NCBI RefSeq assembly: GCF_002563855.1 | Contig: NZ_PDJQ01000001.1 | Coordinates: forward strand, 1,798,001-1,862,000 | Direction of reading: 5' to 3' | Source of the DNA: Tepidiforma thermophila | GTDB taxonomy: Bacteria; Chloroflexota; Dehalococcoidia; Tepidiformales; Tepidiformaceae | DNA: 64,000 nt | Shown here: positions 8,971 to 61,293 of the stretch, piece after piece | Layout of the letters: every line of letters starts with the position of its first letter | How positions within the stretch are numbered: the first letter of the stretch is position 1 | Translations under genes and position numbers: made by a program | The notes under the pieces: generated by a model | What the model saw: only the letters and a program-made list of their open reading frames with translations | Databases searched by the model: none | Told to the model about the DNA's origin: nothing

Positions 8971-9603
8971 TCAGCGGGGAGCGCGAGCGGCGATCCGTTC
9001 GGCTACCATCTTGCGCACCGCCGCCACGGCCTCGGCATCGTTCCCGAGGGTATACACGATCGCAATCACCCTCCCCATGCGATACGCATCCGTATACACG
9101 AGGTTCCCCTGTCCGTCCGGCCTGGCGGTTACATAACTTCGTACGCCATCCGCGATGTAGACCGGGGTCCCGTCGGCCTGCGTGGTGCCCGGCCCGAAGA
9201 GGTCGGGAGGGGGATTCCGGAGCGCATCGGCGATGGCCGCGAATTGCGTCGACGCCGTCTCGGCACTTGGCAGGAGGTTCACCTCGACCCGCACGCTCGA
9301 AACGCCCGGCTTGCTGCCGGCGAAGACGGCGAGGTACGCGTCCTGTTCCGGTGTCAGCGAGGGCAACTTCCCTTTGGTATCTGCCCGGAAGCCGGCATCG
9401 GTAAGGTCGGGGATGAGCTCAGCAGCGGAGGTGACCGGCGGCGAAGGCGCATCCTCCTTGCCGCCGCATCCTGCCGCGAGCCCGAGACTCAGGAAAATGA
9501 CAATCGCGGCAGCGAGGCAAACTGCAAGATGATGTCGGCTGCCTGCCCCGGCGAGATGCGGTCGGTGCTGATGCAGAGGTCGTAGGTGCTCGGAGTCAAC
9601 CAT
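8971..9603 (-). CDS. exported lipoprotein, unknown function
   Basis: Predicted lipoprotein. A hydrophobic stretch (LAVCLAAAIVIFLSLG) runs into the lipobox LAAGC, followed by a charged linker and a ~150-residue soluble domain (VSSVRVEVNLLPSAETASTQFAAIADAL). The only ATG that includes the signal peptide is at 9603. That makes the gene overlap the end of the cytidylate-kinase-like gene by 115 bases in another frame. No GTG, TTG or ATG occurs between that ATG and the hydrophobic core. The mature domain is not recognised; it could be a substrate-sensing or envelope protein. Confidence 0.65.
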   Translation of the reverse strand: MVDSEHLRPLHQHRPHLAGAGSRHHLAVCLAAAIVIFLSLGLAAGCGGKEDAPSPPVTSAAELIPDLTDAGFRADTKGKLPSLTPEQDAYLAVFAGSKPGVSSVRVEVNLLPSAETASTQFAAIADALRNPPPDLFGPGTTQADGTPVYIADGVRSYVTARPDGQGNLVYTDAYRMGRVIAIVYTLGNDAEAVAAVRKMVAERIAARAPR

Positions 9604-52697: not shown

Positions 52698-53159
52698 TCA
52701 AGATTTTTGACCGGCGGTGAGCAGCGCCCGGGTCCTCCGGTGCCGCCACCAGAACATGCCGAGCAAAGCCGGGCGGACAAGCAGCCACTCGACAAGCTCT
52801 CCGACCGGCGTAGGAAGCAGGCGAAAGGCGACGGCGTCCTCGAGCACCGCTCCGTCGGCCGCCGGGATGAAGCGGTGCTGGTGACGCCAGCGACGGAATG
52901 GTCCGCGGACCTGAGCGTCTTCGATAAGCCGGCCTTCGACCACCCGTGTGATGCGTGCCTCCCACGTTATTCCCGCGCGCTTCCATCCAAGCCGAAAAAC
53001 CTGGACATCGCCCTCTCGCGTCTGCGCACCTCCGCCGGCAACCAGCCGGAACGGCGGAAAAGGCGGCGAAATTCGGCCGAGGTTCGACACATCGGCGTGG
53101 AATTCGAATAGCCGTTCTGCCGGGACGGGAAGCTGACTGCGGAACCGCAGGTTCGTCAT
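52698..53159 (-). CDS. SRPBCC-family ligand-binding protein
   Basis: A 153-residue START/SRPBCC-fold protein. Pattern: FRSQLPVPAERLFEFHADVS at the start, then FRLGWKRAGITWEARITRVV and RWRHQHRFIPAADGAVLEDA. Such proteins bind hydrophobic ligands; members are found beside carotenoid or lipid genes. It overlaps the stop of the desaturase by four bases (ATGA) and lies downstream of it in the same transcript, which suggests a role with the desaturase product. Confidence 0.85.
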   Translation of the reverse strand: MTNLRFRSQLPVPAERLFEFHADVSNLGRISPPFPPFRLVAGGGAQTREGDVQVFRLGWKRAGITWEARITRVVEGRLIEDAQVRGPFRRWRHQHRFIPAADGAVLEDAVAFRLLPTPVGELVEWLLVRPALLGMFWWRHRRTRALLTAGQKS

Positions 53160-54631
53160 AAGGGCGCCTCCATACCAAGGTACTCCAGTACGTCGCGCGC
53201 GGCGTTGATGCCGGAGAGGGCCGTCCCGACGGTACCCTGGCCGGGAAATGTGTGGTCGCCCGCGAGCACCATCCCCCGTCCGGCGCGACGGCCAGGGGCC
53301 CGAAGTGCGACGACCGACGGTGTCTGGCGAAGCCCGCCGACGAATCCCCCGGGCCGCCCGGTGAACCGCTGGTAGGTCGCCGGGGTCGCAGAGCGCAGCA
53401 AAAGGATCCGATGGTCGACGTCCGGGATGACGCGCCGTACGGCCTCGAGGAGACGCCCTTCGAGCCTGCAGCGCAGCCGCTGCGCCTGGGCCGGGGGTAC
53501 GGCAAAGGCACCAGGCGGCACATGCGTCGAGACCGAGATGCTCCAGCGGTTCGCCCGGTCGCCGCGGCCGGGGTAGATCGACACAAGGCAGTTGTTGCCG
53601 GGAGTTTCGAGGTCGTTAAGGTCGGAAACGATCTGGTGGAACGGGTGGAGCGGCGCGAGCCCGGTCGCGTCGATTCCGAGGTGGAGAACAAACGCGCCCC
53701 AGGCCTTCCCGGGCTCGGGTAAGCGGGGCGGCCGGCCCATGAGGAGGTCGAGTCCGCCGGGCGGCAGGTTCGCAATAACTGCCCGAGCCGACAGGGTGGT
53801 CCCGTCGTCGAGGCGCACTCTCCAGCCGCTGCCGTCCGGCCGAAGCCCGGCGACGCCGTTGCCGAAGGTCACGGTGCCCCCGCTGGCTCTGATGGCGCGG
53901 ACCAGTTTCATCGCGAGCGCGCCCGTGCCCCCGTCGACCCACTGGCAGCCCCGCCGGTAGAGGTCGAGCGCGATGGCGCCCTGCACCGCGCTGCAGTCGG
54001 TCGCCGTTGCGCCCGTTGCGTCCAGGAGGAGGGCGTTGATCAGCGCGTCAGCAGCAGGGTCGCCGTCAGCGCCCAGGAGCCGCTTGACGCGGCGGATGGT
54101 GGCGAAGAGCCACGGCGCTGCCAGCACCAGCGAGGGGCTGACCGCCCGGAGCGAGCGGCGGATGTCGGCCGGCCGCTCGAGCGGGAACGACGGGAGCGCC
54201 GCGCCGATGCGATACACCTCGCCGCCCACGAGCCGCACCCACCGCCAGAAGCGCCGGTAGCCAGCCGGTGCGCCCGCGAACTGCTCCGCGAACAGGGCTT
54301 CCCACGCCGCATGGGAAGCGACGTACGGCACCACCCGGTCAGGCAGGTGGAACACGATCGAAGGGTCGAGCGGAACTGCCTCGACATCGAGGCCGACCGC
54401 GTCGAAAACCTGTCGAAGGATGCCGCCCGGCTCGAGCCCGGTGACGACGGTCGCTCCTGCGGGAAACCAGAATCCGCCGAGCGCGAAATCGCCGGCGCAG
54501 CCGCCCGGGCGCGTGTGCCGCTCGAACACGTGCACCCTTGCTCCGGCCCTCGCCGAAAGCGCTGCCGCGGTGAGCCCGCCGAAACCGCTCCCGATGACCA
54601 GGATGTCGGCCTCACAGTCTGTTGAAACCAT
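53156..54631 (-). CDS. CrtI-like FAD-dependent desaturase/isomerase
   Basis: A 491-residue flavoprotein of the phytoene desaturase/CrtISO superfamily. The N-terminal FAD motif is ILVIGSGFGGLTAAALSARA followed by VFERHTRPGGCAGDF; the C-terminal FAD-binding motif is MVLAGDHTFPGQGTVGTALSG. Middle region: GCQWVDGGTGALAMKLVRAI. It may act on carotenoid precursors or a related polyprenoid. ATG 54631 coincides with the predicted +1 of a promoter (TTGTCA, 18 bases, TACCAT) overlapping the CarH repeat array, so light control and a leaderless mRNA are likely. Confidence 0.85.
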   Translation of the reverse strand: MVSTDCEADILVIGSGFGGLTAAALSARAGARVHVFERHTRPGGCAGDFALGGFWFPAGATVVTGLEPGGILRQVFDAVGLDVEAVPLDPSIVFHLPDRVVPYVASHAAWEALFAEQFAGAPAGYRRFWRWVRLVGGEVYRIGAALPSFPLERPADIRRSLRAVSPSLVLAAPWLFATIRRVKRLLGADGDPAADALINALLLDATGATATDCSAVQGAIALDLYRRGCQWVDGGTGALAMKLVRAIRASGGTVTFGNGVAGLRPDGSGWRVRLDDGTTLSARAVIANLPPGGLDLLMGRPPRLPEPGKAWGAFVLHLGIDATGLAPLHPFHQIVSDLNDLETPGNNCLVSIYPGRGDRANRWSISVSTHVPPGAFAVPPAQAQRLRCRLEGRLLEAVRRVIPDVDHRILLLRSATPATYQRFTGRPGGFVGGLRQTPSVVALRAPGRRAGRGMVLAGDHTFPGQGTVGTALSGINAARDVLEYLGMEAPL

Positions 54632-54637
54632 GTAACC

Positions 54638-54690
54638 ATGGTAGAGACCTCGACGAGAGTTTGACAAATCTTTGAAATCCGGCGAGGATA
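54638..54690. promoter_or_regulatory. CarH operator (three 11-bp repeats) with divergent promoters
   Basis: CCTCGACGAGA (54648-54658), GTTTGACAAAT (54659-54669) and CTTTGAAATCC (54670-54680) are head-to-tail. The second fits the nnTnnACAnnn pattern known for Thermus CarH, the others differ at one recognition base. Plus promoter: TTGACA (54661-54666), 17 bases, GAGGAT (54684-54689). Minus promoter: TTGTCA (54667-54662), 18 bases, TACCAT (54643-54638). Both predicted +1 sites fall on the ATG of the divergent genes. Confidence 0.68.
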
Positions 54691-54695
54691 CCACT

Positions 54696-55604
54696 ATGCG
54701 GAAGCCCGGCATCTACCGGATTGCCCAGGTGGAATCCATGACCGGCGTGAGCGCGCACGCACTCCGGGCGTGGGAGCGCCGGTACGGCGTTCCCCGGCCC
54801 AGCCGCACTGGCGGCCAGCAGCGCACCTACTCCGAGGCGGACATCGCGATGATCCGCCGCATGCACGAACTGGCCAGCCAGGGCGTTCCGCTGGCCCGCG
54901 CCGCTGAGATCGTGCTCCAGGAGGCGGCCACGCCGGGCGAGGGGACCGGCCCCCGGATCGCACTGCTGAAGACGGAGCTGTTCGACGCCCTGCTTGCGTT
55001 CGACGAGCCGCGGGCCGCGGCGGCCTGGACCGAGCTTTTTGATACCTTGGACCTGCTGAGCGGGTTCGAACGGGTGGTCGTGCCCCTGATGCGCGATATC
55101 GGCATCGCCTGGCATGAGCAGCGCATCACCATCGCACAGGAGCACTTCGCGTCCAACTTCGTGCGGGCCCGCCTCGACCAGCTCAGCCGACAGGTGCAGC
55201 CGCTGCCCGGCGCCGCGACCGTCGTCCTTGCCTGTCTCGAAGGCGAACACCATGAAATCGGCCTGCTGATGCTCGCCGTCATGCTCCGCTTCCAGGGCAT
55301 TCGGACCATCTACCTCGGCCAGGATGTCCCGGACGAAGACCTCATCCGGACCGTGGAAGACGCCCAGCCCGAGGTGCTCGCTGTCAATGCGGGGACGCCG
55401 GAGGGTGCGCGCCACCTCCCGGGGGTGGTGAACGCCCTCGCCGAAACCGCGCCGCTGACCGCTATCGTCTACGGCGGCGGCGCCTTCGACGCCGACCCCT
55501 CCCTTCGTATTGAGAACGCGTATTATGGCGGGCCCCGCCTCGTTGAGGCGGTCGCACTCATCAATCAGCTCGGACGTTCACGCATCACAGGAGGTGCGGC
55601 ATGA
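54696..55604 (+). CDS. carH: CarH/LitR-type B12-dependent photoreceptor transcriptional repressor
   Basis: A 302-residue light-sensing repressor. The MerR-type HTH is at residues 5-75 (GIYRIAQVESMTGVSAHALR; AWERRYGVPRPSR). The light-sensing helical bundle contains the CarH hallmark W139-H140 ... E149-H150 (W-x9-E-H, WHEQRITIAQEH), and the cobalamin-binding domain has EGEHHEIG with His186 as lower ligand. CarH binds adenosylcobalamin in the dark, forms a tetramer on the operator, and falls apart on illumination. ATG 54696 is preferred; a TTG eight codons earlier lies inside the operator. The next gene overlaps it (ATGA). Confidence 0.92.
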   Translation: MRKPGIYRIAQVESMTGVSAHALRAWERRYGVPRPSRTGGQQRTYSEADIAMIRRMHELASQGVPLARAAEIVLQEAATPGEGTGPRIALLKTELFDALLAFDEPRAAAAWTELFDTLDLLSGFERVVVPLMRDIGIAWHEQRITIAQEHFASNFVRARLDQLSRQVQPLPGAATVVLACLEGEHHEIGLLMLAVMLRFQGIRTIYLGQDVPDEDLIRTVEDAQPEVLAVNAGTPEGARHLPGVVNALAETAPLTAIVYGGGAFDADPSLRIENAYYGGPRLVEAVALINQLGRSRITGGAA

Positions 55605-56500
55605 AAATCGCAGTCGCTGGCGGCACGGGGTTCCTTGGCCGCTCGATCACGAAGGCGCTTCTTGACGCCGGTCACGACGTCGTGGTCGGCTCGCGGCGGC
55701 GGCCCGAGAAGGCGCCGCTCGACCCGCGGGCGAAATGGGTCGCAGCCGACGTCACGGCTCCCGAGACGCTCTCGGCGCTGCTCGCCGGGGCCGACGCAGT
55801 CGTCGACGCCGTCCAGTTCCCGAATTCGCCCATCGAGAACCCGAAGAAGGGGTATACCTTCGAACGGATCGACCTCGGCGGTACCCGCAACCTGGTCGAT
55901 GCGGCCAAAGCAGCCGGGACGCCGCTGTTCATCGGCCTCAGCGGCGTCGGCGCGGCCGAGCACGCACCCTACCACTGGCAGCGGTTCAAGTGGGAGGAGG
56001 AGCAGCATATCGTGGCGTCCGGCGTGCCGTACGTAGTCTTCCGGCCGAGCTGGGTGTACGGACCCGGTGATGTCTCGCTCAACCGGTTCCTTAGCTTTGC
56101 GAAGTTCCTCCCGTTTGTCCCGGTCATTGGCAACGGGAAGACGCGAATCAACCCGCTCTACGTCGAAGACCTTGCGGCACATGTCGTGGCAGCGGTCCAG
56201 AAGCCGGAGGCGCGCGGGCGCATCTTCGAAATCGGCGGGCCTGAAGTCCTCACCATGGACGACGTCATCCGGACCGCGCTCAGGGTGTCGGGCCGCCGGC
56301 GACTCCTGCTCCACAGCCCGAAGCCGGTCATGAAGCTCGTCGCTTCGGTTGCGCAGCTTGCGCCCGGCCGGCCGCTCACCCCCGACGCCATCGACTTCAT
56401 CACGATGGACGGAGTTGCCGACACCAGCAGCCTGCGCGAGGTGTTCGGCCTCCGCCTGACGCCGCTTGAGGAGGGCCTGGCGGCCTATCTGAAGCGCTGA
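55601..56500 (+). CDS. NAD(P)-binding NDUFA9-like / atypical SDR protein
   Basis: A 299-residue extended-SDR-like protein: MKIAVAGGTGFLGRSITKAL (GGTGFLG), ALLAGADAVVDAVQFPNSPI and LFIGLSGVGAAEHAPYHWQR-type. YxxxK is not clear, as is usual in the NDUFA9/NmrA-like atypical group. It is translationally coupled to carH (ATGA overlap with GGAGG upstream), so would be expressed under CarH control as carotenoid- or redox-related function. Confidence 0.86.
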   Translation: MKIAVAGGTGFLGRSITKALLDAGHDVVVGSRRRPEKAPLDPRAKWVAADVTAPETLSALLAGADAVVDAVQFPNSPIENPKKGYTFERIDLGGTRNLVDAAKAAGTPLFIGLSGVGAAEHAPYHWQRFKWEEEQHIVASGVPYVVFRPSWVYGPGDVSLNRFLSFAKFLPFVPVIGNGKTRINPLYVEDLAAHVVAAVQKPEARGRIFEIGGPEVLTMDDVIRTALRVSGRRRLLLHSPKPVMKLVASVAQLAPGRPLTPDAIDFITMDGVADTSSLREVFGLRLTPLEEGLAAYLKR

Positions 56501-57075: not shown

Positions 57076-58521
57076 GTGCCTGCCGCGTCAGTCTTCACCC
57101 TTCCCCGTCGCGCCCGGCTCCTTCCTGCACTGATTGCCCGTCACCGTGACGACGGCTTCCTCACGCCAGCGTCCGTTGAGGCGGTCGCCCGGGAGCTGGG
57201 TATCCCGGCGGCGGAGGCATGGGAGGCCGCGCGGTCGTCCCACGAGTTCCGTTTCGATGCGCCAGCTGGTGAGCGGGCCTGCGCCGGGATCGCCTGCGCA
57301 CTCCACCCTGGCTATCGCCAGCCCGAGCTGCCCGCCGGCTGCCTGTTTCGCTGCTACGCCCCGCCGGCATCCGGGGACGAGCAGCCCTTCCCGGCGGAGA
57401 TGGTGCGCGAAGCCGGTCCGCTTCTCGGGCCGACCGACCGGACGTGGGCGGGGCTGGAGCGCGCCCGCCGAATCGGGCCGGCCGCAGTCCTCGACGCGAT
57501 TGAAGAGGCCGGGCTGCGCGGTCGCGGCGGCGCCTACTTCCCCACCGCCCGTAAGTGGCGCGCCGCCCTCCGCCACGGGACGCCGATCGCCCTCGTCATG
57601 AACGCAGAGGAGGGGGAGCCCGGTGTCTTCAAGGACCGTGCGCTGCTCTGCCTCCGCCCGGAGCGGGTGGTTGAAGGGCTGGCCATCGCTATGGAGGCTT
57701 TAAAGCCGGCGGTGACCATCGCGTTCATCAACGGCGAAGCCGACCCCGCCGCGGAGGCATTTGAGCTGGCGCTCGCGGACTCGCCGATTGCCGGCCAGGT
57801 TCTGCTCTACCGCGGCGCCGGCGGCTACGTGCTCGGGGAGGAGACCGCGCTCCTGAACGCCATCGAAGGTCGCCGGGCCGTGCCCCGGCCGCGCCCGCCG
57901 CTGCCGGTGGATTCGGGCCTCTTCGGCATGCCGACCGTGGTCAATAATGTCGAAACTCTCGCTGCCGTCGCGGTGATTTTGCGCGAGGGCGCCGCAGCGT
58001 TCCGCGCCCTTGGTGCCCCCGAGGCGCCGGGGACCCGAATCCTCTCGCTCAGCGGCAGGGTTGAGCGCCCGGGAGTATACGAAGTGCCGCTCGGGACACC
58101 GCTTGCGGAGGTCCTCGACCGGGCCGGGGCGCCCGCTCAGGAGCGGGCCGCGGTCCTGTGCGGTGGACCGTCGGGCGGGTTTCTCCCCGGAGGGTTGGCC
58201 GCCCAGCCGGTCCTGCCCGGCCGCTACCACCCGACCGGTGCGATGCTCGGCGCCGGGGGCATCGTGGTGCTTGAAGCCCCGGGCGACATTCGCCGGGCGG
58301 CCCTCACCATGGCCGCCTTCAACGCCGAACAGTCGTGCGGCAAATGCACCCCCTGCCGGGAGGGGACGCCGCTTCTGCTCGAGGCACTGGGGGGCAATCC
58401 CGCCGACCTGGCCGAGGACCTGCTCGACGCCATCCAGCTGGCATCCCTCTGCGGCCTCGGCCAGATGGCAACCGGACCGGTCCGCTCCGCGCTTGCGTTC
58501 TGGCCGGAGGTGTTCTCGTGA
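57076..58521 (+). CDS. NAD-linked formate dehydrogenase beta subunit (compact NuoE fused to NuoF)
   Basis: A 481-residue diaphorase subunit. Residues 1-100 resemble NuoE (helical LLPALIARHRDDGFLTP) with four Cys of its [2Fe-2S] site: C69, C74 (ACAGIACAL) and C89, C93 (CLFRC), but the usual ~36-residue gap between pairs is only 15. NuoF follows: FMN/NAD site GRGGAYFPTARKW, NAEEGEPGVFKDR and GAGGYVLGEETALL. The [4Fe-4S] ligands are SCGKCTPCREG and SLCGLG. It passes electrons between FDH and NAD. The start is GTG 57076; the next gene overlaps by four bases. Confidence 0.92.
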   Translation: MPAASVFTLPRRARLLPALIARHRDDGFLTPASVEAVARELGIPAAEAWEAARSSHEFRFDAPAGERACAGIACALHPGYRQPELPAGCLFRCYAPPASGDEQPFPAEMVREAGPLLGPTDRTWAGLERARRIGPAAVLDAIEEAGLRGRGGAYFPTARKWRAALRHGTPIALVMNAEEGEPGVFKDRALLCLRPERVVEGLAIAMEALKPAVTIAFINGEADPAAEAFELALADSPIAGQVLLYRGAGGYVLGEETALLNAIEGRRAVPRPRPPLPVDSGLFGMPTVVNNVETLAAVAVILREGAAAFRALGAPEAPGTRILSLSGRVERPGVYEVPLGTPLAEVLDRAGAPAQERAAVLCGGPSGGFLPGGLAAQPVLPGRYHPTGAMLGAGGIVVLEAPGDIRRAALTMAAFNAEQSCGKCTPCREGTPLLLEALGGNPADLAEDLLDAIQLASLCGLGQMATGPVRSALAFWPEVFS

Positions 58522-59180
58522 AAGTCGACGGGCGCACCGCCCCGGAGACCGGCAGCATCCTCGATGCCGTGCTCGCGCTCGGCATCCACCTGCCGCACCT
58601 GTGCAAGGACGATAACCTGCCACCGATCGGGGCCTGCCGTACCTGCCTGGTGGAGGCCGATGGCCGGGTTGTCGCGGCCTGCCACACCCCAGCGGCAGGC
58701 GTTAGCGAAGTCCTGACCGCTTCTGAGCGGGTCGCCCGGCTGCGGCGCGAGGTGCTTCGGCTCACGTCTCGGATGCACGGCCGCGAGCCCGATGTGGCGG
58801 GCGGTCCGCGGAGCGGTGAGATCTGGGCAGCGTACGAGGAGCACGGCCTCGAACGCCCGGCGTTTCCGCGGCGCATCCGCGACGGCACCGATGCCACGAG
58901 CCCGTTCTTCGAATTCGAGGAACAGGCCTGCATCCTCTGCGGGCGGTGCGTCACGGCCTGTCAGCAGCTCCAGCACATCGGGGCGATCGGCATCGCCGGG
59001 ACGGCGACTTCGGCCCGCGTCACGCCGGGCGCCGGGGCAACCTTCGCGAGTTCGATCTGCACGGCGTGCGGCTCGTGCGTGGCGGCATGCCCCACGCATG
59101 CCCTGCGTCCGAAGCCGATGAGCGACCCAGCGCAGGCTGGCCGCTCCAGGAGACGAGGAAATGGAACGGAAGACCGTTAG
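58518..59180 (+). CDS. formate dehydrogenase Fe-S subunit (NuoG N-terminus/HoxU-like)
   Basis: A 220-residue electron-transfer subunit. The [2Fe-2S] ferredoxin domain has C29, C40, C43 and C55 (CKDDNLPPIGACRTC; AAC), followed by two [4Fe-4S] ferredoxin motifs, CILCGRCVTAC and CTACGSCVAACP. The NuoG H-x3-C-x2-C-x5-C site is not seen. It links the catalytic subunit and the NuoEF-like subunit. GTG 58518 overlaps the upstream stop; its own end overlaps fdhA by 20 bases, so the three are tightly coupled. Confidence 0.9.
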   Translation: MKVDGRTAPETGSILDAVLALGIHLPHLCKDDNLPPIGACRTCLVEADGRVVAACHTPAAGVSEVLTASERVARLRREVLRLTSRMHGREPDVAGGPRSGEIWAAYEEHGLERPAFPRRIRDGTDATSPFFEFEEQACILCGRCVTACQQLQHIGAIGIAGTATSARVTPGAGATFASSICTACGSCVAACPTHALRPKPMSDPAQAGRSRRRGNGTEDR

Positions 59181-61293
59181 CACCTGCCCGTTCTGCGGCG
59201 TCGGCTGCGGGATCGTGCTGCACACACGCGACGACCGCATCACCTGGGTCGACGACGACCCGGGCAACCCGTCGAGCCGGGGGATGCTCTGCGTGAAAGG
59301 GCGGTTCGGCATCCCCTTTGTCCAGCACCCCGACCGGCTCACGACGCCGCTGGTTCGCCGCGACGGCGAACTTCAGCCCGCGAGCTGGGACGACGCCCTG
59401 GACATCGTGGCCGAGCGGCTCCTTGAGTACCGCGGCGCCTTTGGCAGTTTCGCGAGCGCGAAGGCGACCAACGAGGACGCCTTCGTCCAGCAGAAATTCG
59501 TCCGGCTGGTGATGGGGACCAACAACATCGACCACTGCACCCGGCTCTGCCATTCCCCGAGCGTGGAGGCGATGCTGGTCCAGCTTGGCAGCGGGGCAAC
59601 GAGCAACTCCTACATCGACTACGAGGAGGCATCGTGCCTGGTCGTCGTCGGGTGCGACCCTGATTCGAACCACCCGGTCATCGCCTCGAGGATGCGCAAG
59701 GCGGTCGACGATTACGGGACGAAACTGGTGGTCGTCAACCCGAAGCGGATCGACCTCGCAGAGCGGGCCGACGTCTTCCTGCAGCCTGCGCCCGGGACCG
59801 ATGTCGCCCTTTTCAACGGCATGGCCCGCGCCATCCTCGATGATGGCCTTGAGGACCGGGAATTCATCGCCGCACGGACCGAGGGGTTCGAAGCCTGGCG
59901 GGCGGTGGTGATAGAACGGACCGTGGAGGAGTACGCCCAGGCGTGCGGGGTGGACCCGCACGCACTCCGGCTGGCCGCCCGCCTGTATGCCCGGCCGCCG
60001 GCCCGGCGCGGCCTGCCCGCGGATGAGCGCCCGGGGAGCTGCCTCGCCTGGGGCATGGGTATCACCCAGCACACCCACGGGACGGATAACGCGCATGCGC
60101 TCATCAATTTGGCGCTGCTCGCGGGCCAGCTGGGCCGGCCGGGCTGCGGGATTTCGCCGCTGCGCGGTCAGAACAACGTGCAGGGCTGCGGGGATGCCGG
60201 CTGCATCCCGGATTCGCTGCCCGGGTACCAGCCGTACCGGGATGACGTTGCCGCGCGCTTTGAAGAGGCCTGGAATGCCGGCATTCCCCGCGAGCCGGGC
60301 ATCAAAGCAACCGACATGGTCGAGCGCATCGCGACCGGCGAGATCCGGGCGATGTACATCGTCGGCGAGAACCCGCTGCTGTCAGAACCGAACCTGGCAC
60401 ACGCGGGCGATCTTTTTCGTCGGCTCGAGTTTCTCGTCGTCCAGGACCTGTTCCTTCACGAGACCGCAGAGCTTGCCGACGTGGTATTGCCCGCCTGCTC
60501 GTTTGCGGAAAAGGACGGGACGTTTACCAACAGCGAGCGAAGGGTGCAGCGGGTGCGCCAAGCCGTCCCGCGGGTCGGACAGTCCCGGCCGGACTGGGAG
60601 ATCATCTGTGACCTGGCCCGGCGGATGGCGCCGCGCGTGGGGGTCGACCTCGGCCAGTTCGCGTACCGCTCGCCTGCGGAGATTTTCGCCGAGATGGCGC
60701 GGCTCACGCCGCAGCTCCGGGGCATCAGCTATGAGCAGCTGGACCGCGAGGGCGGCATCCAGTGGCCCTGCCCGTCGGCCGATCACCCGGGCACGCGTTT
60801 CCTCTATGCAGAGAGCTTCCCGCGGGGGCGCGGAAGATTTGTGCCCGTCCGGCAGGCTACGCCGGCTGCCGAACTGCCCGATGCGGATTACCCGCTCATC
60901 CTCAACACTGGCCGGGTGCTCTACCACTGGCACGGCGGCACCCTGACCCGGCGCGTCCAGGCCCTGATGGACCAGGTGAGCGAGGTGCCGGTGACCATCC
61001 ACCCCGGCGATGCGGAGAGGCTTGGCATTGCCGACGGCGATGAGGTGGTAGTCCGCTCACGTCGCGGGCGGCTGACCGGGAGAGCCGTCGTCACCGATGC
61101 TGTGCGGACTGGCTCGGTATTCGTTCCGTTCGTCAAACTTCGCGAGAGCGCCGCCAACTTCCTGACGAACAACGCCTACGATGAACCCTCTCGCATCCCG
61201 GAGTACAAGGTCTGCGCGGTGCGGGTGGAAAAGAAGCGGCCCTGGGACGCAGCGCTTACCGGCGGGTGGCCCACTGCTTCGCGTGATAAGTGA
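59161..61293 (+). CDS. fdhA: formate dehydrogenase catalytic alpha subunit (Cys-containing, molybdopterin)
   Basis: A 710-residue Mo/W bis-pterin oxidoreductase that oxidises formate to CO2 (or the reverse). The N-terminal [4Fe-4S] motif is CPFCGVGC. The active site reads [17 protein letters not shown], with Cys in place of selenocysteine in R-x-U-H-G-P-S, and conserved His following. Mid-domains: [20 protein letters not shown] and [13 protein letters not shown]. The C-terminal dinucleotide-binding part has [18 protein letters not shown]. No Tat signal, so cytoplasmic with the subunits above. GGAG precedes the ATG. It converges with hemB with a 38-base overlap. Confidence 0.93.

Follow-up and report, generated by a model that had tools for sequence, protein, structure and literature searches.

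The 64-kb window analysed here, the whole stretch of DNA taken from the single-contig, 2.74 Mb genome of Tepidiforma thermophila, contains a carH-like gene divergent from a gene for an FAD-dependent oxidoreductase of the CrtI superfamily, with a 65-bp spacer between them that holds tandem 11-bp repeats and two predicted promoters (Table 1). The SRPBCC gene which overlaps the oxidoreductase end probably belongs to the same operon as the oxidoreductase, and the epimerase-type gene overlapping the carH stop codon is likewise probably cotranscribed with carH. The divergent pairing of carH with the same oxidoreductase is found in six Tepidiforma genomes and in G032, a representative of another genus of the same family with a CarH that is 63% identical; orthologues of the oxidoreductase occupy the same place in all seven, and in G032 the oxidoreductase-SRPBCC pair also lies beside carH. 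The T. flava oxidoreductase gene facing carH (L045, around 8975-9015) is broken across two frames near residue 67-80, through either a frameshift or an error in sequencing. At G012:C26:58672-58941, what was found of a carH orthologue is the final third alone (63% identical, in an open frame of 103 codons), possibly a remnant. Elsewhere in the window (57076-61293), genes for NuoF-like, ferredoxin-like and molybdopterin oxidoreductase proteins follow each other in a row which, we presume, resembles an NAD-linked formate dehydrogenase cluster.

Table 1. Features of the carH-oxidoreductase region, in window coordinates.
Feature	Position	Strand	Basis
SRPBCC (Polyketide_cyc) gene, overlaps oxidoreductase end	52698..53159	-	Pfam
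CrtI-superfamily FAD oxidoreductase (CrtD/CrtISO-like), 491 aa, predicted leaderless start	53156..54631	-	Profile matches; orthologues in same place
Divergent promoter -10, TACCAT (TANNAT in six Tepidiforma; TAGGCT in G032)	54638..54643	-	Alignment, scan
Repeat 1 (DR1), CCTCGACGAGA, degenerate here (TCGACG)	54648..54658	+	Sequence, alignment of relatives
Repeat 2 (DR2), GTTTGACAAAT, full TnnACA match, holds both -35 boxes	54659..54669	+	Sequence, alignment
carH promoter -35, TTGACA	54661..54666	+	Sequence; in all six Tepidiforma, G032 and G021
Divergent promoter -35, TTGTCA	54662..54667	-	Alignment, promoter scan
Claimed repeat 3, CTTTGAAATCC, without conservation	54670..54680	+	Sequence, alignment
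carH promoter weak -10, GAGGAT (3/6; NANNAT in relatives)	54684..54689	+	Sequence, alignment
carH-like gene, MerR DNA-binding and B12-binding domains, 302 aa, predicted leaderless start	54696..55604	+	Pfam, TtCarH match, residues
NAD(P)-binding epimerase-type gene, overlaps carH stop	55601..56500	+	ORF, Pfam

The carH-like protein displays the succession of MerR, four-helix and Rossmann B12-binding domains (Pfam MerR_1, B12-binding_2 and B12-binding), and its best matches in the PDB are Thermus CarH structures (residues 2-263, 1e-37). All residues aligned to Thermus W131, H132, E141, H142, E175, H177 and G180 are retained, as are those aligned to G192 and D201, and the position of R176 is occupied by His in the genus. 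The Wx9EH motif, which caps the adenosyl group, is intact (WHEQRITIAQEH), and ExHxxG and RxWERRY are also present. The upper-ligand His is needed for the bis-His cobalt of the light state (PMC10442372), and the conservation of the light-sensing residues implies that the Tepidiforma protein possesses it. From the B12 motif D/ExHx2G/P-x41-SxT/V-x22-27-GG, the protein has EHHEIG, GG and the lower-ligand His, with SxT/V replaced by NAG throughout the genus. Against the NCBIfam CarH equivalog model NF052513 it scores 182.8 bits (cutoff 400; Thermus CarH, 473.5), and given this score and the NAG deviation, we refer to the protein as CarH-type rather than as an NCBI-defined equivalog. The domains, the match to TtCarH and the light-sensing residues nevertheless support the CarH-type regulator proposed in the first-pass annotation. 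Cobalamin adenosyltransferases of both the PduO type and the BtuR type are encoded in the genome.

The oxidoreductase on the minus strand falls below every family cutoff, the nearest family being CrtD (188.7 bits versus a cutoff of 549.7). Although initially described as a desaturase, it is tied by homology only loosely to carotenoid enzymes. A clear phytoene desaturase (584 bits) is encoded 0.5 Mb away, in a crtB-crtI-P450-lycopene cyclase cluster. In view of the low CrtD score and of this second gene, a role of the oxidoreductase in carotenoid metabolism is likely but unproven. The cluster, comprising crtB, crtI, a cytochrome P450 gene and a lycopene cyclase gene (L041, 7094-11703), shows a TAGCGT box of the leaderless type, placed 7 nt ahead of a GTG codon. 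Colonies of T. flava and T. thermophila have been described as pale yellow (PMC10284905).

Within the spacer, three 11-mers adjoin without gaps at 54648-54680 and match 3/4, 4/4 and 3/4 of the TnnACA key bases, respectively, exactly as the first-pass annotation had read them. We compared the spacers of the six Tepidiforma (the same-genus relatives include T. flava and two Tepidiforma metagenome-assembled genomes) and G032, aligned on TTGACA. The conserved block runs from the minus-strand -10 box through repeat 1 to repeat 2 and then ends: mean pairwise identity is 0.77 in the -10 slot, 0.70 in repeat 1 and 0.92 in repeat 2, versus 0.33 in slot 3, on par with the edge slots of the compared region (0.30-0.32). 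The core of repeat 2 is invariant in the six Tepidiforma, and TTGACA is retained in G032 and G021. In repeat 1, the T, the C and the upstream A of AnnTnnACA, the published CarH operator consensus (PMC8156234), are constant in the six Tepidiforma; the repeat reads TCGACA in G001, G002, G003 and G032 and is weaker in T. thermophila and G004 than in three other species. Scored against this consensus (maximum 5), repeat 1 reaches 4, 3, 5, 5, 5 and 4 in the six Tepidiforma and 5 in G032, repeat 2 reaches 5 in all seven genomes, and slot 3 yields 3, 3, 0, 1, 3 and 1 in Tepidiforma and 2 in G032 (3, 3, 0, 1, 3 and 0 in the six Tepidiforma for the four TnnACA key bases). Thus, of the triple CarH-type array originally proposed, repeats 1 and 2 stand, being kept 11 bp apart across both -35 boxes, but slot 3 has diverged like unconstrained sequence, and repeat 3 is probably at most an accessory half-match. 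The locus therefore retains the layout of a CarH operator, namely, a full and a near-full tandem 11-bp TnnACA repeat over promoter boxes, with the third copy not conserved. Because repeat 1 occupies the stretch that separates the -35 box from the -10 box in the minus-strand promoter, polymerase binding alone does not account for its conservation.

The restriction of conservation to two repeats bears on the form in which the regulator would bind. A CarH dimer might occupy the two conserved repeats, as documented for Cystobacter CarH, which needs two tandem repeats (PMC9304148), instead of a Thermus-like tetramer on three; this would be a sub-case of the main reading with the same repression logic, and the replacement of R176 by His in the genus is consistent with it. 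Conversely, the positions of Thermus G192 and D201 are unchanged, slot 3 still matches 3/4 key bases in T. thermophila and two relatives, and in Sorangium, CarH binds an operator in which one of three repeats is full and the others are degenerate (PMC9304148). We regard the dimer as possible, at somewhat less than even odds.

The two -35 boxes overlap by 5 bp in one TTTGACAAA core and, as initially noted, both lie inside the middle repeat. The plus-strand promoter comprises a 17-nt spacer and the -10 box, followed by 6 nt and the ATG at 54696; on the minus strand, an 18-nt spacer and the -10 box are followed by 6 nt and the ATG at 54631. Accordingly, both start codons coincide with the predicted +1 positions, corroborating the earlier prediction, and the arrangement is kept in the relatives. 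The minus-strand -10 box is located exactly 6 nt before ATG or GTG in 7/7 genomes, and the plus-strand box 6-7 nt before the start codon in 5/6 Tepidiforma and 6 nt in G032, the exception being G005, in which carH starts 14 nt past the -10 box; the carH side is thus leaderless-like in 6/7 genomes. A consensus promoter scan recovered the minus-strand promoter (9/12; shuffles, 0.0 +/- 0.2) and missed the plus-strand one. In a survey of 94 called genes of this genome (~113 kb), TANNNT matches number 5, 10 and 3 at -12, -13 and -14 (18 in total) versus 0-6 at other offsets, a concentration suggesting that leaderless genes are common here. The minus-strand TACCAT and the plus-strand GAGGAT both sit at -12, although the latter lacks the first T of TANNNT. 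Other high-GC and thermophilic groups also have leaderless genes (PMC3160421), so that leaderless starts of carH and the oxidoreductase appear credible rather than remarkable. The 5' end of each message most likely coincides with the start codon or falls no more than 1-2 nt from it.

For carH, an alternative is that GAGGA at 54684-54688 serves as a Shine-Dalgarno sequence, with transcription starting further upstream. In T. thermophila, 8 nt separate the end of GAGG from the ATG, and the overlapping hexamer is a weak -10 box (3/6) which escaped the scan. However, G002, G004 and G005 carry no Shine-Dalgarno-like sequence at this position and yet keep an AxxAT hexamer at -10 spacing, and G032 has TAACTT 17 bp past TTGACA and 6 nt before the ATG, which makes a leadered carH message unlikely.

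Is the spacer an operator at all? The middle repeat contains TTGACA by necessity and could represent just two back-to-back overlapping -35 boxes, with the flanking repeats due to chance and CarH acting elsewhere. The 64-kb window contains a single triple as good as that in the spacer at lag 11, and for lags 8-10 and 12-15 the counts range from 0 to 2, that is, chance would deliver ~0-2 such triples per 64 kb per lag. Our rough estimate of the probability of such a triple in a spacer this small, ~0.001, is weakened by the fact that the middle repeat is not independent, the same bases forming the -35 box; together with the divergence of the third repeat, this favours the sceptical view. The comparative conservation is the stronger evidence for a predicted operator: repeat 1, outside both polymerase boxes, is kept in exact 11-bp register with the right bases, also in the other genus, and the search of Tepidiforma revealed no second place where the pattern is conserved.

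The same register recurs at other CarH-like genes of the class. Across 24 regions upstream of CarH-like genes from outside Tepidiforma, perfect TnnACA pairs occur 7 times at lag 11 versus 0-2 times at each other lag from 6 to 33. With the 5-key consensus, counted over 23 sequences (L058, in which the start was not located, was excluded), lag 11 accounts for 17 pairs scoring at least 8/10, spread over 10 sequences, compared with 0-9 such pairs at any other lag; among lags 8-15, good triplets are confined to lag 11. Given that the set contains mutually related sequences and G032 itself, these counts are supporting rather than formal evidence, but they render CarH-type recognition credible and, along with the conservation of repeat 1, leave a spacer devoid of CarH binding quite improbable. 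Upstream of carH-like genes of Chloroflexia (L084-L107), the spacing at which perfect TnnACA pairs are most frequent is 22 bp instead of 11 bp, which may reflect shared ancestry or a spaced operator; because these are mostly closely related species with no clear lag-11 signal, we gave this peak no weight. In G028, a CarH-like gene is located beside a DNA photolyase gene (L012 and L051), and the upstream region contains 11-bp repeats that face the other way (TGTCAA, TGCCAA, TGTCGA) as well as a same-orientation TGGACA/TGGACG pair.

A wider regulon did not emerge from the search. Matches to TNGACN6TNGACA are few per Tepidiforma genome, about as many as with a reversed-pattern control, and the carH spacer alone recurs. 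No CarH-type repeats were found upstream of the crtB-crtI-P450-cyclase cluster, and the photolyase upstream region yielded only weak 3+3 repeat pairs. One further candidate in T. thermophila, with two direct repeats 11 bp apart (TTGACAGCAATTTGACA; G000:C1:2450334-2450350, corresponding to L042, 7335-7351), was rejected, as it is absent from the other Tepidiforma genomes; it adjoins a phage-type integrase gene.

That the regulator binds the repeats independently of B12 or light, in the manner of CarA, or acts as an activator, would fit its score below the CarH model cutoff and the change of the B12 tail motif to NAG, but is highly improbable, considering that the intact Wx9EH, the next His and the B12-binding His motif constitute the feature distinguishing CarH from CarA (PMC9304148) and that the -35 overlap suits repression.

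Overall, the spacer is probably a real and functional CarH operator, and the wiring of the predicted switch is well supported by the comparison with relatives. Extending to this locus the binding, repression and light response known from the CarH family (PMC8156234; PMC9304148), we infer, with a probability of roughly 0.7, that the 65-bp spacer is a bidirectional operator-promoter, repressed in the dark and released by light for both genes. In the dark, a CarH oligomer with bound adenosylcobalamin would assemble on the tandem 11-bp repeats, chiefly 1 and 2, with repeat 3 being accessory at best, and would cover the overlapping -35 boxes, blocking RNA polymerase in both directions and silencing the oxidoreductase-SRPBCC operon along with carH itself, which would thereby be autoregulated. 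Light would cleave the B12 cofactor, the oligomer would fall apart, and both promoters would open; given the 5-bp overlap of the -35 boxes, two polymerases should then exclude each other. More tentatively, and with the odds rather against it, these features might amount to a distinct Tepidiforma-type design that combines a two-repeat operator, a central repeat that also provides two mutually exclusive polymerases with a common palindromic -35 element, leaderless messages and a CarH with an altered B12 tail motif. If so, a single 65-bp element would couple light, B12 and strand choice. The locus places a predicted B12-based light switch with a conserved predicted operator in Tepidiforma, hot-spring Chloroflexota with described species that grow as pale yellow colonies, and offers a very compact, conserved natural case for studying the reading of a two-repeat site by CarH and the control, by one operator, of two predicted leaderless promoters which share a -35 region.

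A search of open-licence papers returned none that deals with CarH in Tepidiforma. The closest precedent is the divergent crtI-carH promoter of Sorangium cellulosum, which has the same design in another phylum. The spacer of the latter (PcrtSc1) contains one full and two degenerate repeats, and a single site has been proposed to serve both promoters; a CarH-derived protein binds this operator in vitro in an AdoCbl-dependent manner, and expression is B12- and light-dependent, with derepression by light (PMC9304148). In both cases, carH is divergent from a CrtI-family gene across one full and two degenerate repeats. However, the partner in Sorangium is a phytoene desaturase, whereas that in Tepidiforma is CrtD/CrtISO-like, and Tepidiforma differs in that both genes have predicted leaderless starts and the two -35 boxes overlap within one repeat; the Sorangium paper nowhere uses the word 'leaderless' (PMC9304148). 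Thermus thermophilus CarH (PDB 5C8D, 5C8E and 5C8F) shares with the Tepidiforma system the domain order, the light-sensing residues, the 11-bp TnnACA direct repeats and the position of the -35 box inside a repeat, but has three repeats, compared to the two conserved in Tepidiforma, where in addition R176 is replaced by His and SxT/V by NAG. The operators of Bacillus megaterium and Cystobacter similarly consist of tandem 11-bp repeats with degenerate copies and variable repeat number, and the use of two tandem repeats by Cystobacter CarH dimers parallels the two conserved repeats of Tepidiforma (PMC9304148; PMC8156234), although the former operators contain four or five repeats in another gene setting. 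A further related case is that of bidirectional bacterial promoters, in which one pseudo-symmetrical sequence can be bound by polymerase in two exclusive orientations (PMC12825309); by comparison with the promoters described there, the symmetry at the carH locus resides in the -35 boxes, placing the predicted starts 65 bp apart. What sets the predicted Tepidiforma arrangement apart from these systems is its compactness: both -35 boxes fit in one repeat, and each coding sequence begins at its predicted +1, an arrangement shared by two genera.
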